In this document: one piece after another, positions 46,944 to 62,300 of the stretch | How the letters are laid out: each line of letters begins with the position of its first letter | How positions within the stretch are numbered: the first letter of the stretch is position 1 | Assembly (NCBI RefSeq): GCF_003610785.1 | Contig: NZ_RAQQ01000004.1 | Location: 124,001-188,000, forward strand | Direction: 5' to 3' | Source of the DNA: Micromonospora globbae | GTDB lineage: Bacteria; Actinomycetota; Actinomycetes; Mycobacteriales; Micromonosporaceae | Length of the DNA: 64,000 bases | Notes under the pieces: model-generated | Seen by the model: only the letters and a program-made list of their open reading frames with translations | Databases searched by the model: none | What the model was told of the DNA's origin: nothing | Made by a program: the position numbers and the translations under genes

Positions 46944-47006
46944 CGACCGCCCGGCTTCCCCGGTGAGATCATCGGGAGGCCGGCGGGCAGCACCGTACGA
47001 CCGATC

Positions 47007-47051
47007 CGGCCGCTCTGGCCCGGCGGAGAACCCGCTGGGCCAGAGCGGCCG
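47007..47051 (+). terminator. Perfect 15-bp inverted repeat after the lipoprotein gene
   Basis: Arms 47007-47021 and 47037-47051 pair perfectly around a 15-nt loop, 64 bp after the lipoprotein stop. Such a stem between a binding-protein gene and its transporter often lowers expression of the membrane parts. A new TAGGCT -10 follows at 47099-47104. Confidence 0.65.
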
Positions 47052-47134
47052 AGTCGCGCACCACGGCGACCGGCCCCCGTCCGGGCCGGGACGGCAGCTA
47101 GGCTGCACCATCGCTCGCACTCCAGGAGGTTGCG

Positions 47135-48721
47135 CTGAGACTCGAACTGCGCGGCATCACCAAGCGGTTCGGTGACCTGGTCGCCAACGACCACATCGAC
47201 CTGACGGTGGAGCCTGGAGAGATCCACGCCCTGCTCGGCGAGAACGGCGCGGGCAAGTCGACCCTCATGAACGTGCTCTACGGGCTGTACCAGCCCGACG
47301 AGGGCGAGATCCTGGTCGACGGTGAGCCGCTGAAGCTGCGCGGGCCCTCCGACGCGATCGGGGCCGGGATCGGCATGGTGCACCAGCACTTCATGCTGGT
47401 GCCGGTCTTCACCGTCGCCGAGAACATCATGCTCGGCGCGGAGCAGGTGCGGGGCGGAATCGCCGGTTTCCTCGACCGGCGGCGGGCCCGCCGCGAGGTC
47501 ACCGAGGTCTCGGAGCGGTACGGCCTGCGGATCGACCCCGACGCCGTCATCGAGGACCTCCCGGTCGGCATCCAGCAGCGGGTGGAGATCGTCAAGGCGC
47601 TCACCCGCGACGTCGACCTGCTCATCCTCGACGAGCCGACCGCGGTGCTCACCCCCCAGGAGACCGAGGAACTGCTCACCGTCATGCGGTCGCTCAAGGC
47701 CGCCGGCAAGTCGATCGTCTTCATCACCCACAAGCTCGGCGAGGTCAAGGCCATCGCCGACCGGATCACCGTGATCCGGCGCGGCAAGGTCGTGGGCACC
47801 GCCTCCCCCGAGGCCAGCCGGGACGAACTGGCCGCGCTGATGGTCGGACGCAGCGTCCGGCTCACCGTCGAGAAGGCCCCGGCCACGCCCGGCCGGCCGG
47901 TGCTCGAGGTCTCCGGCCTGGTCGTCGACGACGACCGGCAGGTCCGCGCGGTCGACGGGGTCGACCTGACCGTGCACGCCGGTGAGGTGCTCGGCGTGGC
48001 GGGCGTGCAGGGCAACGGCCAGACCGAGCTCATCGAGGCGATCATGGGCCTGCGGCCGGCGCTCGCCGGCTCGGTGACGCTCGACGGCGAGCGGATCGAC
48101 GGCTGGTCGACCAAGAAGGTGCTCCGCGCCGGCGTGGGCTACGTGCCCGAGGACCGCAGCGTCGACGGGCTGGTCAAGGAGTTCAGCGTCGCGGAGAACC
48201 TCGTGCTGGACATGTACGACCGGCCTCCGTTCGGCGGTGGTCTCGCGCTCCGGCCGGACGCCATCGCGGAGTCGGCGAAGGAACGCATCGCGCAGTTCGA
48301 CGTCCGGACCCCGTCGGCCGAGGCTCCGGTGGGCACGCTGTCCGGCGGCAACCAGCAGAAGGTGATCGTGGCCCGGGAACTCTCCCGGCCGCTCAAGCTC
48401 TTCATCGCCGCGCAGCCGACGCGCGGTGTCGACGTGGGGTCGATCGAGTTCATCCACGGCCGGGTCATCCACGAGCGGGACGTCGGCACCGCCGTCCTCG
48501 TGGTGTCCAGCGAGTTGGACGAGGTGATCGGGCTGGCCGACCGGATCGCCGTGATGTACCGCGGCCGGATCATCGGTGTCGTCGGCCCGGACACGCCCCG
48601 CGAGCAGATCGGCCTGCTGATGGCCGGTGTGAGCCCGGAGGTGGCGGCCGAGCAGGCGGGTGACGCGTCGGAGAGCGGCACGGCCTCCGCCGACGCCCCA
48701 CGTAACGAGGACGAGGCATGA
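47135..48721 (+). CDS. Nucleoside ABC transporter ATPase, probable CTG start
   Basis: A 528-residue protein with two nucleotide-binding domains (RbsA/NupA type). Domain 1 has [38 protein letters not shown] and [11 protein letters not shown]. Domain 2 has the degenerate loop [14 protein letters not shown] and [17 protein letters not shown]. The first ATG/GTG/TTG in frame (GTG 47207) would cut off the first strand and [14 protein letters not shown] stop at 47099 leaves CTG 47135, five bases after AGGAGG (47124-47129), as the best start, giving [23 protein letters not shown]. The stop overlaps a 27-aa mini-ORF by ATGA. Confidence 0.9.
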
Positions 48722-48801
48722 GCGAGCGCAGCGAGCGAATCATCGGGCACAGCGCGGTGGAGCCTCATGACGGCGCCGACCGGAGGGAGGTGCCGGCATG
48801 A
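48718..48801 (+). CDS. 27-aa mini-ORF, copy 1 (MSERSERI...)
   Basis: ATG 48718 overlaps the ATPase stop (ATGA) and opens 27 codons beginning [16 protein letters not shown] and ending REVPA. The TGA at 48799-48801 overlaps the start of copy 2 by ATGA. The peptide is polar and has no known domain. The chain of four-base overlaps means ribosomes can move from ATPase to copy 1 to copy 2 to permease without a gap. It may be a spacer or leader that tunes subunit ratio. Function unknown. Confidence 0.55.
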
Positions 48802-48877
48802 GCGAGCGCAGCGAGCGAATCATCGGGCACAGCGCGGTGGAGCCTCATGACGGCGCCGACCGGAGGGAGGTGCCGGC
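48718..48877 (+). repeat. Perfect 80-bp tandem duplication
   Basis: 48718-48797 and 48798-48877 are identical over all 80 bp. Each unit holds one mini-ORF and a GGAGGGAGG ribosome site for the next ATG. The permease start at 48878 repeats the first 11 bases of the unit. Lack of any divergence implies a recent duplication or active homogenisation. Confidence 0.95.
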
Positions 48878-48881
48878 ATGA
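48798..48881 (+). CDS. 27-aa mini-ORF, copy 2 (identical to copy 1)
   Basis: The second identical ORF, from ATG 48798 to TGA 48879-48881, which overlaps the permease ATG at 48878 by ATGA. GGAGGGAGG lies a few bases before both this copy's start and the permease start. The permease itself begins MSER, as if its first codons derive from the same element. Confidence 0.55.
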   Translation: MSERSERIIGHSAVEPHDGADRREVPA

Positions 48882-50242
48882 GCGAGCGTCAAAGGTCGGG
48901 TTCGCCCGACAAGGACCCGGCGAGCGAAGCGCAGGCCGCGCAGGACTCGCTCGGCAACACCGAGCGGGCCGAGGACGCGACCACGCCGGAGGCGGCCCCG
49001 GCCACCGGTGGGACGGAGCCGAAGCCCACCCTCGGGCGGCTGTTCCTGGAGAACCTCTGGGCCGCGAACACCGTCACGGTCACCGTGCTGTCGCTGGTGC
49101 TGGCGATCGTGGTCGGCGCGATCCTGATGATCATCTCGGATCCGGACGTCCTCTCCACCTACTCCTACATCACGGCCCGGCCGTCGGACGCGCTCAACTC
49201 CAGTTGGACGCTGGTGAGCGAGGCGTACGCGAACCTCTTCAAGGGCGCGATCTTCGACCCCGAGGCGTTCTCCGGCTGGCTCGACGGGAGCAACGGCTGG
49301 CAGGCGGTCCTCGCGCCGATCAGCGAGACGCTCACGTACACCGCGCCGCTGGTCTTCACCGGCCTGTCGGTGGCGCTCGCCTTCCGTGGCGGCCTGTTCA
49401 ACATCGGCGCGCAGGGCCAGGCCACCATCGGCGTGGTGCTGGCGGCGCTGGCCGGCTTCCTGCTGCCGCTCCCGCCCGGCCTGCACCTGCTCGTGGCGCT
49501 GCTCGCGGGCGCGCTCGGCGGCGCGATCTGGGGCTTCATCCCGGGCATCCTCAAGGCGCGGACCGGCGCCCACGAGGTGATCAACACGATCATGCTCAAC
49601 TACATCGCCACGTACTTCCTCACGTGGTTGATCGTGCAGAACGGCGTGCAGGACCCGAACCGCACCGACGCCATCAGCCGGCCCGTGGACCCGTCGGCCC
49701 AGCTGCCGCGGCTGCTCGGCGACAACCTCCGGGTGCACGCCGGCATCCTGCTCGCCGTGCTCGCCACCTGGGCCGTGGCGTGGCTGCTGAACCGCTCGAC
49801 GCTCGGCTTCGAGTTGCGCGCGGTGGGCGCCAACCCGGACGCCGCCCGCACCGCCGGCATCAGCGTGACCCGCACGTACGTCCTGATCATGGTCTTCGCC
49901 GGGCTCCTGGCCGGCCTGGGCGGCTCCAACATGGTGCTCGGCTCGACCGCCAGCGCGCTCACGCCGCTCGTGGTGGCGCAGATCGGCTTCGACGGCATCC
50001 TCGTGGCGCTGCTCGGCCGGGTGAAGCCGTGGGGCGTGGCGCTCGCCGCGCTGCTCTTCGGCGCCCTCCAGGCCGGCGGCAACCGGATGCAGTCGTACTC
50101 GGGGATCTCGCTGGAGCTGGTCACCGTGCTCCAGGCGCTGATCGTCATCTTCATCGCCGCGCCGGCCCTGGTGAAGGCGATCTTCCAGCTCCGGGCCGCG
50201 CGGGCCGCCCGGTTGCAGACGAGCCTGGCGAAGGGCTGGTAA
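48878..50242 (+). CDS. Nucleoside ABC transporter permease 1
   Basis: A 454-residue permease of the branched-chain/BMP-associated type (NupP/YufP-like). Residues 1 to about 55 are polar and begin MSERQRSG. Then one helix, an external loop, and about eight helices. Typical phrases are LTYTAPLVFTGLSVALAFRGGLFNIGAQGQ, AHEVINTIMLNYIA and LRAVGANPDAARTAGISV. It starts by ATGA overlap with the second mini-ORF and pairs with the second permease 3 bp downstream. Confidence 0.92.
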   Translation: MSERQRSGSPDKDPASEAQAAQDSLGNTERAEDATTPEAAPATGGTEPKPTLGRLFLENLWAANTVTVTVLSLVLAIVVGAILMIISDPDVLSTYSYITARPSDALNSSWTLVSEAYANLFKGAIFDPEAFSGWLDGSNGWQAVLAPISETLTYTAPLVFTGLSVALAFRGGLFNIGAQGQATIGVVLAALAGFLLPLPPGLHLLVALLAGALGGAIWGFIPGILKARTGAHEVINTIMLNYIATYFLTWLIVQNGVQDPNRTDAISRPVDPSAQLPRLLGDNLRVHAGILLAVLATWAVAWLLNRSTLGFELRAVGANPDAARTAGISVTRTYVLIMVFAGLLAGLGGSNMVLGSTASALTPLVVAQIGFDGILVALLGRVKPWGVALAALLFGALQAGGNRMQSYSGISLELVTVLQALIVIFIAAPALVKAIFQLRAARAARLQTSLAKGW

Positions 50243-50245
50243 CTC

Positions 50246-51526
50246 ATGTCCACCATGGCTGTCCCCGACGTCGCGGTCGCCCCGGTCGACGAGGGCTTCT
50301 GGAACCGCAACCGCAAGGTCGGCCTCGTCCTGCTGGCGCTCGGCCTGATCGCCGCGGTGCTCTTCGGCGCGCTCGCCACCGACCAGCGGGCCCGGTTCAC
50401 GCTCAGCGAGGACGCCGCCGGCGCGGCCCTGGAGATCAACGGCACGTTCGGCGCGATCCTCTTCGGGGTCGTCGCGCTCGCCGCCGGCGCGGCGTTGCTC
50501 GCCGGGCTGCCGAAGCGCTGGTTCCTCACGGTCCTCGGCGTCGGGCTCGTCGCCTTCGTGTTCTCGTTCCTCTGCTGGCAGGTCTCCGCGGCCCCGGCCG
50601 GGCAGAACTTCATGCCGCTCGTCAACATCATCCGCGGCACGTTCATCCTGGCCCTGCCGCTGATCTTCGGCGCGCTCGCCGGCGTGCTCTGCGAGCGGTC
50701 CGGTGTGGTCAACGTGGCCATCGAGGGGCAGCTGCTCATGGGCGCGTTCAGCGGCGCCCTCTTCGGCAGCATCTCCGGCAACGTCTGGGTGGGCCTGGTC
50801 GCCGCGGCCATCGGCGGCGCGTTCATCTCGCTGCTGCTGGCGATCTTCTCCATCCGATACCTGGTCGACCAGGTCGTCATGGGCATCGTGCTGAACCTGC
50901 TCGCGGTGGGCGTCACCGGCTTCCTCTACGAGCGGCTCATGCAGACCAACACCGAGCGGTACAACAGCGCTCCCCGGTTCAGCAACTGGGAGATCCCGCT
51001 GCTCAAGGACATCCCGGTGATCGGTCCGGCGCTGTTCCGCGGCAACATCTTCCTCTACCTCGGGCTGCTGCTGGTCCTGGTGATCCACATCGCGCTGTTC
51101 CGCACGCGGTGGGGCCTGCGTACGCGCTCGGTCGGTGAGCACCCGACCGCCGCCGACACGCTCGGCGTCCGGGTGCTCGGCCTGCGGTACCGCAACGTGC
51201 TGCTGGCCGGCGTGGTGGCCGGCATCGGCGGTGCCTCCTACACGCTGGCGCTCTACTCGTTCACGAAGAACATGATCGGTGGTAAGGGCTTCATCGCCCT
51301 GGCCGCGCTCATCTTCGGGCGGTGGAACCCCACCGGCGCGCTGCTCGCCGCGCTCTTCTTCGGCTTCGCCGACCAGCTCGCCACCTACCTGAGCACCATC
51401 AACAGCGTGATCCCCAGCCAGTTCCTCGCCATGCTGCCGTACCTGGCGACGATCCTGGCCGTGGCCGGCCTGGTCGGGCGGGTGCGGGCGCCCGCCGCCG
51501 ACGGCAAGCCGTACGTGAAGGGCTGA
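50246..51526 (+). CDS. Nucleoside ABC transporter permease 2
   Basis: A 426-residue permease, partner of the preceding one (NupQ/YufQ-like). An N-terminal extension with about four helices precedes the core: LPLIFGALAGVLCERSGVVNVAIEGQLLMGAF, YLVDQVVMGIVLNLLAVGVTGFLY, GLRTRSVGEHPTAADTLGVRV and GKGFIALAALIFGRWNPTGA. ATG 50246 lies 3 bp after the first permease stop. The pair forms the heterodimeric membrane channel. Confidence 0.92.
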   Translation: MSTMAVPDVAVAPVDEGFWNRNRKVGLVLLALGLIAAVLFGALATDQRARFTLSEDAAGAALEINGTFGAILFGVVALAAGAALLAGLPKRWFLTVLGVGLVAFVFSFLCWQVSAAPAGQNFMPLVNIIRGTFILALPLIFGALAGVLCERSGVVNVAIEGQLLMGAFSGALFGSISGNVWVGLVAAAIGGAFISLLLAIFSIRYLVDQVVMGIVLNLLAVGVTGFLYERLMQTNTERYNSAPRFSNWEIPLLKDIPVIGPALFRGNIFLYLGLLLVLVIHIALFRTRWGLRTRSVGEHPTAADTLGVRVLGLRYRNVLLAGVVAGIGGASYTLALYSFTKNMIGGKGFIALAALIFGRWNPTGALLAALFFGFADQLATYLSTINSVIPSQFLAMLPYLATILAVAGLVGRVRAPAADGKPYVKG

Positions 51527-59379: not shown

Positions 59380-62300
59380 GTGAGCAAACGGCCACAGGCG
59401 GCGGGCTCCTTCCTGTCGCGGCTGCGCCAGCCGGCCAGCCGGCTCAGGGACATGCCGATCTGGTCCAAGCTCGGTCTCATCATGATCGTGCCGACCATCG
59501 CCACGGTCGTGGTGGGCACCAACGGCCTGGTCGACCACCTTGAGACACTCAACAATGCCAACCGGGCCGGTGACCTCGCCAATCTCTCGGGCTACTCCGG
59601 TGACCTGATCGACACCCTCCAGGACGAGCGCACCACGGCCGTGTTGCTGCTCGTGTCGAAGCAGGGCCAGGCGAGGGCGCAATACCAGGAGGCGTACAAC
59701 CGGGTCAACACCCGGGTGGAGCAGTCGAAGACGCCGTACCTGCGGCAGCGGGGAACCATCAGCGACCTCCCGGCGAGCATGGAGAGCCAGCTCGACGAGA
59801 TCGCCCAGAGCCTGACCGAACTCCCCGGCATCCGCAGCCAGGTCTACAACGGCAAGATGCGGCCCGCCGAGGCGGTCCAGGCGTACGAGGGCCTCATCAG
59901 CGACCTCCTCGCCATCCGCGACTCGGCCACCCAGCTGGCCGGTGACAACGACCTGAGCGACCGGATGCGCGCCGCCGCCGCCGTGGCGCGGGAGAAGGAG
60001 TTCCTCTCCCAGCGCCGGATCGTGGTGCACGAGGCGCTGGCGCGGGGGGAGATGGATCCCGCCCTGCGCACCGAGTACATCTCCAGCGGCACCGGCCAGG
60101 AGCAGGCCGTCCAGAACTTCAAGGCGGTGGCCACCGAGGAGGAGGCCCGCTTCCACGACCAGACCATCGCCGGCGGCGACCGCCGCCAGGCCGAGCAGTA
60201 CCTGGGCTGGATCAACGGCAACACCAGCGGCAAGATGACCGGCGCCCCGTTCGGGCCGGACCAGTGGGACGCGGCCATGGTCGCCAACGCGAAGCTGATC
60301 CGGGCCGTGGAGACGAAGCTCGACGGCGACGTGGTCCGCCGCGCCGAGAACATCCGTTCCGACGTGCAGCGGCAGGTGTTCCTGGAGACGGGCCTGCTGC
60401 TCAGCATGCTGTTGCTGGCCGTCCTCTTCGCGTACCTGGTCGCCCGGTCGATGGCCCGGTCGCTGCGCGAACTGCGCCAGGGCGCCCTCGCCGTCGCGCA
60501 GTACGGGCTGCCGCAGGCCGTGGCCCGTCTGCGGGACCCGCAGGTGAGCAACCAGCTCACGCCGGCGCAGCTGGCCACCCAGATCGCCGAACCGCTGCCG
60601 GTCCGCAGCAAGGACGAGTTCGGCCAGGTGACCGAGGCGTTCAACGCCGTCCACCTGGAGGCCGTCCGCACCGCCGCCGAGCAGGCCGCGCTGCGCGCCT
60701 CCGTCGCGACGATGTTCGTCAACCTGGCCCGCCGGTCGCAGATCCTCGTCGACCGCCTCATCGGGCACCTCGACCGGCTCGAGCGGGGCGAGGAGGACCC
60801 GGACCGCCTCGCCGAGCTGTTCCAGCTCGACCACCTGGCCACCCGGATGCGGCGCAACGACGAGAACCTGCTGGTGCTCGCCGGCGCGGACTCCACCCGC
60901 GTGCAGCGGGAGCCGGCCGCCCTCATCGACGTGCTGCGCGCCGCCCAGTCGGAGGTCGAGCACTACACCCGGATCGAGTTCGGCGTCATCGACCGCGACA
61001 TCGAGATCGCCGCGCACGCCGTCAACGACCTGGTGCACCTGGTCGCCGAGCTGTTCGACAACGCCACGGCGTTCTCGCCGCCGGACTCGCAGGTGCTGGT
61101 CGAGGCCCGCCGGGTCGGCGACCGCGCCTCGCTCTACGTCGAGGACCGCGGCATCGGCATCAGCCCCGACCAGTTGCAGGAACTCAACGAGCGGCTGGCC
61201 ACGCCCCCGCAGGTGGACGTGGCCGTGTCCCGCATGATGGGTCTCGTCGTGGTCGCCCGCCTCGCCTCGCGGCACGGCGTCCGGGTGGAACTGCGCCCCG
61301 GCAACCAGCGGGGCACCGTCGCGGAGGTCACGCTGCCGACGTCGGTGCTCGTGCCCCGTGCCCTCTCCGGGCGGGTGCAGCAGCCGCCGGCGCTGCCCGC
61401 CCCGGCCGGTGGCGCCCCCGGGACCGGCCCGGTGCCGTCCTTCGGCGGGCCCCCGACCGGCCCGGCGCCGACCTTCGGCGCGCTGCCCGCGCTCGGCGTG
61501 CGGCAGAGCGAATCCGGCAACCAGGTCACCCTCGGCGGGCGCCCGTTCGACCCGGCGTCGCCCAACGGCTCGGGCGGCACGCTGCCGGCCGGCCCGTCGC
61601 GCGGCATGCCGGCCTGGTCGGACCTGACCGGTGCCACGGCGGCCAACGGCGCCGGCACGTTCACGCCGCGTCCCGCCAACGGCCAGCCGGTCGACCCGCT
61701 GCCCCAGCGGCGTGCCGGCGACGCCGACCAGCCCGGCGGCCAGTCCCCGGCCATCCCGCGGCAGTTGCCGAGCAGCCCCGAGGCCACCCCGTACTCGCCG
61801 CCGCCCGTCTCCGCGCCGCCGCTGCCACCGGTCTCGGGCGGCCCGGTGTCCGGCTCGCCGGTCTCCGCGCAGCCGTACTCGGGTCCGCCGGTCTCCGCGT
61901 CGCCGTACGCCGGTCCGCCGGTCTCGGCCTCGCCGTACGCGGGCCCGCCGACCTCCGCCTCGCCGTACTCGGCTCCGCCCGTGTCCGGCCAGCCGTACTC
62001 CGCCCCGCCCGTGTCGGGCCAGCCGTACTCGGCACCGCCGGCCGGTGCGCAGCCCTACTCGGCCCCGCCGGCGAGTGGTCAGCCGTACTCGGCGCCGCCG
62101 GCCGCTCAGCCGTACTCGGCGTCGCCGGCGAGCGGCCAGCCGTACCCGGCCGCGCCCGCCGGTGAGCAGGCGTACCCGGCGCCGGCGGCGAACCCGTTGC
62201 CGTCGCGGCCCACGGCGTCGGCTCCGCCGGCCTGGCCGCCGGTCGCCGACGCGGACCGGGAGACGGCGACGCCGGCGGTGCCCGAGCGGCTCGCCGCCGC

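Follow-up and report, generated by a model that had tools for sequence, protein, structure and literature searches.

The 80-bp sequence that stands twice in tandem between two transporter genes of Micromonospora globbae is a unit of a dispersed repeat resembling the mycobacterial interspersed repetitive units (MIRUs), a likeness that is well supported. From sequence comparison, we consider it probable that the repeat is a relay cistron at gene starts, which likely spreads at (C)ATGAG(C) and is predicted to be translationally coupled to the gene that follows. The next gene likely comes to depend on translation of this putatively mobile mini-cistron. Positions given below are those of the window, the whole 64,000-nucleotide stretch of M. 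globbae DNA that was analysed.

The two-unit array and the family it belongs to

As seen in the sequence and its list of open reading frames, two perfect 80-bp units occupy positions 48718 to 48881, between the genes for an ABC transporter ATPase (PF00005; 47135 to 48721) and an ABC permease (PF02653; 48878 to 50242), all on the plus strand. Tandem Repeats Finder described the region as 48715 to 48888, with a period of 80, 2.2 copies and 100% matches. Each unit, together with its shared ATGA, forms a 27-codon mini-ORF with stop (48718 to 48801 for copy 1 and 48798 to 48881 for the identical copy 2). Three ATGA overlaps chain these frames: the ATPase stop (TGA, 48719 to 48721) overlaps the ATG at 48718, the ATGA at 48798 ends copy 1 and opens copy 2, and the ATGA at 48878 ends copy 2 and opens the 454-codon permease ORF. 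A Shine-Dalgarno-like GGAGGGAGG lies 7 nt upstream of the next ATG in both units, at 48782 to 48790 in unit 1 and at 48862 to 48870, before the permease ATG, in unit 2. The first 11 nt of the permease (ATGAGCGAGCG, 48878 to 48888) equal the first 11 nt of the unit and form a partial third copy of its 5' end, as the figure of 2.2 copies reflects. The sequence, the ORF list and Tandem Repeats Finder agree on the identical units, the 27-aa ORFs and the three overlaps claimed by the original prediction, and its ribosome site per unit and repeat-like (MSER) permease start were also found. The count of two units is as assembled, and short-read assembly can collapse such arrays.

The operon encodes a PnrA-like binding protein, the ATPase, two permeases and a cytidine deaminase, and it looks like a nucleoside importer type. 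The ATPase apparently starts at CTG 47135 (GGAGG-TTGCG-CTG AGA CTC GAA, the first three elements at 47125 to 47137), upstream of the first ATG, GTG or TTG start of its ORF (47207). Of the 19 relatives searched, 17 keep this GGAGG plus CTG; the remaining two (Salinispora) had no match to the search pattern. The window also carries, at 61843 to 62191, tandem repeats that overlap one another and have periods of 15 to 117 nt.

The 84-nt unit matches many places in the 7.09-Mb genome. R1, a sequence-only model built from 25 copies of the M. globbae genome, gave 47 matches there at E <= 0.001, fragments included, and matched 59 of 61 Micromonospora genomes, with 2 to 74 matches in each genome that had any. 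Since the unit recurs across the genome and the genus, it is not a chance occurrence, and the further copies at gene starts that the original prediction had anticipated in the genus were indeed found. In an order-wide sample searched with R1 at E <= 0.0001 under strict filters, 74 of 298 genomes matched (43/44 in the genus, 2/10 in other genera of the family and 29/244 beyond the family). The matches beyond the family are a mixed group; those in two genomes, G177 and G245, were rejected as repeat units because they are RegX3 coding sequence.

Near-identical copies occur at unrelated loci, the window unit and the copy at C17:127138 differing at 2 of 84 positions, which suggests recent spread. 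The nearest neighbour of a unit lay in the same genome for 38 of 96 units against 10 expected, in a count whose underlying model was built on M. globbae copies; all of these came from the M. globbae genome, G056 and G047, and none from the 11 other genomes listed. We also observed that two contigs of the M. globbae assembly (G000; L045, C14:1-226; L046, C34:42605-42719) terminate within arrays that share one subtype and whose units are identical; these probably represent one long array that broke the assembly. The repeat had no match in plasmid and phage records, and its exact 26-nt pattern had none in viral contigs. Rfam covariance models gave no match up to E 0.5 over positions 47000 to 50500, and a literature search returned no report of the repeat in Micromonospora.

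Units were collected from 30 loci of the M. globbae genome plus the window, from 28 junction loci, and from 104 loci of relatives, which were picked from the best-scoring places and are biased to well-kept copies. This gave 177 unit hits, 158 of them with RTGA or TTGA at both ends (ATGA or GTGA, once TTGA), and 155 of the 158 are exactly 80 bp long. The three exceptions are a 77-bp unit of Actinoplanes italicus (L180) and a fused pair in the M. globbae genome, of 76 + 82 = 158 nt in one reading frame. The 19 hits without an end are truncated or decayed copies, with a mutated ATGA at two boundaries (L311, L330). At four loci (L038, G000 C9:48009-48170; L377; L258; L274), the internal ATGA is lost and one longer repeated frame is read through; its end still overlaps the gene by an ATGA.

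The hits fall into 131 distinct clusters, 23 from the M. globbae genome and 108 from relatives. Most are single units (110), with 16 double, 4 triple and 1 quadruple, that is, arrays of 2 to 4 in 21 of 131. Judged by position only, a coding frame of the same orientation begins at the last start of 128 of the 129 testable clusters; in the exception, L325, another unit start comes next. In 83 of 130 clusters, the first start shares bases with the stop of the upstream gene, and many of the remaining 47 are preceded by a Shine-Dalgarno-like stretch or a decayed unit; a G-rich stretch of this kind precedes the first start of clusters. The base after the last ATGA is G in 126 of 130 cases, followed by C in 115 of 130, and among 45 overlaps free of the element, GC follows ATGA in 7. 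A chain walk over 29 clusters was set aside because its "gene" labels proved unreliable, owing to long spurious open frames in G+C-rich DNA.

A hairpin over the next start codon

The last 37 nt of the unit were folded by RNAalifold, in an alignment of 25 units, into a hairpin (TCATG...CATGA), with the next start codon and part of its ribosome site in paired positions; the original prediction did not mention this covarying structure. In the window, the terminal hairpin of unit 1 spans 48765 to 48801 and encloses the start of unit 2 and part of its Shine-Dalgarno site, and that of unit 2 spans 48845 to 48881 and encloses the permease start (predicted unpaired probability, 0.01). Among the 25 units, 98.1% of hairpin cells were paired, where cells, here and below, count sequences and not independent events. 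Six of 13 pairs had changed on both sides, with 17 double-change cells compared to 4.4 +/- 1.6 after shuffling and nowhere near that number in slid versions. When 141 units were used, the 14 pairs of the window's fold were 91.5% paired, versus 83.9 +/- 0.4% for shuffled and 18 to 61% for slid versions. Two of these 14 pairs hold in merely 52 to 54% of the units, and without them double changes were seen in 7 of 12 pairs. RNAalifold also drew pairing in the 5' half of the unit (columns 9 to 39), which was rejected, double changes being absent there.

Over these 12 pairs, the wobbles comprise 90 G-T cells versus 6 A-C cells, with 9 pairs leaning the way of the mRNA strand versus 1, and this excess suggests selection on the mRNA-sense strand. 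In the 13 of 141 units that have a GTG start, the partner base is C in 8, a wobble in 3 and a mismatch in 2. The hairpin is predicted to occlude the next start, whose unpaired probability has a median of 0.002 (n = 128); the median for the first start is 0.535 (n = 129), with 0.58 for shuffled unit bodies (n = 384). Next starts are predicted to be partly open at three loci of the M. globbae genome (L116, 0.92; L120, 0.52; L122, 0.48). Compared with shuffles, the single unit folds weakly better (z = -1.12) and the two-copy region better (z = -2.93).

Related units in other genera and families were read at 29 loci from 17 genomes, two of these loci being RegX3 coding sequence. Among the 27 loci with a readable 5' start, the unit frame ends in 20 in an RTGA that opens the next frame; these next frames have 101 codons or more at 17 loci and 12 to 31 codons at 3, two of the latter being another unit. 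Three of the 27 start inside in-frame fused arrays, at L275 and L276 the unit frame continues in frame into a long downstream frame, and L253 and L265 have no RTGA link to the next frame. In native context, 13 of the 20 linked loci had a next start with a predicted unpaired probability of 0.1 or less, and 7 had one of 0.32 to 0.92. Chosen units folded in isolation were closed in 11 of 14; the next start of L256 (G118) is closed in isolation and 0.92 unpaired in context.

Junctions with and without units

The permease junction was read in 48 of the 80 related permease loci retrieved. Of the 21 named loci from Micromonospora, Verrucosispora and Salinispora, 19 were counted, L172 being left out for a run of N and L176, which looks bare, for a match that starts late. 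The ATPase and permease genes meet in a bare ATGA overlap in 13 of these 19 relatives and are separated by units in 6, whose units differ in sequence from those of the window, so that bare and filled junctions are seen between species. Relative to the bare junction of Micromonospora sp. U21, that of M. acroterricola has one unit inserted at the ATGA. The permease start reads ATGAG at all 7 filled sites, the window included, versus 2 of the 13 bare ones (Fisher P = 0.0005), suggesting that insertion prefers CATGAG or brings these bases along. Predicted unpaired probabilities of the permease start were 0.41 to 0.99 at the 13 bare sites versus 0.0 to 0.63 at the 7 filled ones, some of which are partly open (0.38, 0.51 and 0.63).

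A second site, of the livM/livG type, is present in 4 of the 61 genomes at the cut-off used. The M. globbae genome has four units there and G020 none; in G016 the gene carries a fused 18-nt remnant, and in G005 a single frame spans two different units (72 and 71 nt). From the bare and filled sites, together with the near-identical copies at unrelated loci, we infer spread of the unit to new sites, and bare sites could alternatively originate from precise losses. Genes beginning MSER..., as at L376 (G016) and at 48878 to 48888 of the window, still begin with the first 11 to 18 nt of the repeat, an N-terminal leftover, and gene starts of the MSER type elsewhere in the genus may mark places from which units were lost. 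The claim that the element recurs at gene starts and preserves the coupling arrangement on insertion is supported by the 128 of 129 clusters and the bare junctions of relatives.

The hairpin might instead be a DNA signal without a role in translation, for example a single-strand or cruciform site for a putative mobilising machinery, with coupling only letting insertions survive; we regard this as unlikely. TCATG...CATGA also repeats the target-like CATGA in inverted form, REP-type mobile repeats carry such hairpins, and the ATGAG at filled permease starts suggests that the ends matter for insertion. However, wobbles favouring the mRNA-sense strand by 90 to 6 are unexpected for a double-stranded DNA signal, although a single-strand signal could yield them, and in other families, too, 13 of the 20 linked units have the start codon inside the hairpin. 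REP/REPIN elements, dispersed non-autonomous short repeats with a hairpin, go with RAYT (Y1) transposases. The 80-bp repeat is likewise short, dispersed and hairpin-bearing, but it sits at start codons, in one orientation and with an open frame. A Y1 (PF01797) transposase is absent from the M. globbae genome, which argues against the DNA-signal explanation, and one is present in 17 of the 61 genus genomes, where Y1 matches are unrelated to repeat number (Spearman 0.08, P 0.56). The Y1 transposase was accordingly rejected as the mobiliser, and no mobilising enzyme was found for the repeat with Y1 examined in the 61 genomes.

A host device tuning ATPase:permease stoichiometry, a role which the original prediction had raised, is very improbable. 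The units do stand between two subunit genes, whose outputs coupling and hairpin would tie together, and in M. tuberculosis longer MIRU-type arrays accompany higher fpg1 mRNA, according to the MIRU passages of PMC2734929. Yet the junction has no units in 13 of 19 relatives, the family precedes many other genes, and the peptide is not conserved. Moreover, on a junction tree of 22 rows (the window, the 19 counted loci and two outgroup loci), unit presence needs 6 gains or losses, at least 4 of them forced by well-supported branches, versus a mean of 6.1 for shuffled labels, a scatter as at random. The stoichiometry role is unsupported because presence changes like shuffled labels and because many other host genes carry units.

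Reading frame, coupling and comparison with known repeats

No in-frame stop interrupts any of the 141 distinct 80-bp units, as a functional 27-aa protein would require, but such a protein is highly improbable given that the 141 units encode 136 different peptides. Column entropy at codon positions 1, 2 and 3 is 0.595, 0.704 and 0.696, so that third positions are no more variable than second ones. Moreover, a subtype of at least 33 units (20 of the 141 were left unclassed) has one extra base near nt 12 and one fewer near nt 29, which shifts its frame across about 17 nt. Independent sampling of the columns would give stops in about 3% of units, and zero in 141 (P 0.018) is supportive of, not decisive for, a frame that is kept. 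Rickettsia palindromic elements are also short repeats, tolerated since the reading frame is kept; they lie inside proteins, whereas the 80-bp units are separate frames at gene boundaries. A mere local tandem duplication of the permease 5' end with no mobile family behind it, which the 11 nt shared by permease and unit might evoke, has next to no probability and is refuted by the dispersed copies at many other genes and by the bare junctions of relatives, which lack the unit.

We favour, instead, insertion of a putatively mobile repeat at a (C)ATGAG(C) target, where predicted translational coupling would keep the host operon running. An intact copy lengthens the junction by 80 bp, which is 2 modulo 3, so that the upstream stop or the host's ribosome site now feeds the mini-ORF, and the mini-ORF stop overlaps the host gene start by 4 nt. 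The hairpin would hide the next start until a ribosome passes, and the repeat could thereby spread without breaking operons. A ribosome on the mini-ORF would melt the hairpin, terminate at the ATGA and re-initiate at the host start, so that reading of the host gene would proceed chiefly through the element; all of these steps, from translation of the mini-ORF to melting and re-initiation, are putative. A broken frame would leave the start locked, which fits open frames with a drifting peptide. Tandem copies would likely stem from local duplication.

A stronger proposal, which we put forward only tentatively and think somewhat doubtful, is that such units are start-codon parasites in Mycobacteriales. 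The hairpin would be a lock opened solely by translation of the element's own frame, making the host gene a dependant, so that mutations breaking the element would silence the gene and be purged. If true, this would be a translational addiction module without a toxin or a conserved protein.

MIRUs (Supply et al. 1997, as cited in PMC12548453, PMC2734929 and PMC4213456) are described in the relevant passages of these papers as apparently mobile elements with insertion sites at start codons and coupling at -4 nt (PMC12548453), as 40 to 100 bp long and present at 41 places in M. tuberculosis H37Rv (PMC2734929), and as 77- and 53-bp units in the senX3-regX3 gap, there limited to M. leprae and the M. 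tuberculosis complex (PMC4213456). The 80-bp family matches this description as a short dispersed repeat at start codons, with a mini-ORF overlap of -4 nt and tandem arrays, and 77 and 53 bp are both 2 modulo 3, like the Micromonospora unit. The original prediction's view of the element as its best candidate for something undescribed was too strong, since MIRUs as PMC12548453 portrays them are the same kind of element.

To judge by the sequences, the 80-bp family works like a MIRU without kinship to the 53-bp type, the MIRU-type unit compared. Their longest match is 11 nt, and 21 of 200 shuffles reach 11 or more; homology was rejected because the match does not rise above shuffles. The comparison used 30 loci at the senX3-regX3 gap of g12 genomes (Mycobacterium by inference), where 53-bp ATGA-chained units are present in some genomes and the gap is bare in others. 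Arrays of four and five such units stand at two of these loci (L360 and L372), in apparent contrast with the limit to M. leprae and the M. tuberculosis complex given in the senX3-regX3 passage of PMC4213456. Internal starts of the 53-bp arrays were predicted to be 0.78 to 1.0 unpaired in two long arrays and 0.13 to 0.97 in others, and are mostly open, unlike the next starts of the 80-bp family with their median of 0.002. The regX3 start was 0.02 to 0.93 unpaired behind units (7 loci), versus 0.34 to 1.0 at bare sites (8 loci), so that occlusion of the start, though without a fixed hairpin, may also occur in some MIRU-type insertions.

In translational coupling by RNA unfolding, as outlined in PMC12548453, upstream translation opens a structure over the downstream start, and the -4 nt overlap occurs. 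The 80-bp units resemble this in the structure over the downstream start, which covariation and folding support, but the cases in that outline are fixed gene pairs, whereas the repeat would carry its structure to many genes. Relative to MIRUs as these papers describe them, the new part is the covarying hairpin on the next start codon and, by prediction, the translational lock that it would form.

Overall, the MIRU design extends beyond a mycobacterial typing marker, with the repeat in 59 of the 61 Micromonospora genomes sampled and related forms in other families of the order. For annotation, caution is advisable, as gene starts reading MSER... may be repeat remnants. In addition, identical operon junctions that are bare, hold one or two units, or carry fused or remnant units provide a natural insertion series, which could separate two models of coupling, unfolding and re-initiation.
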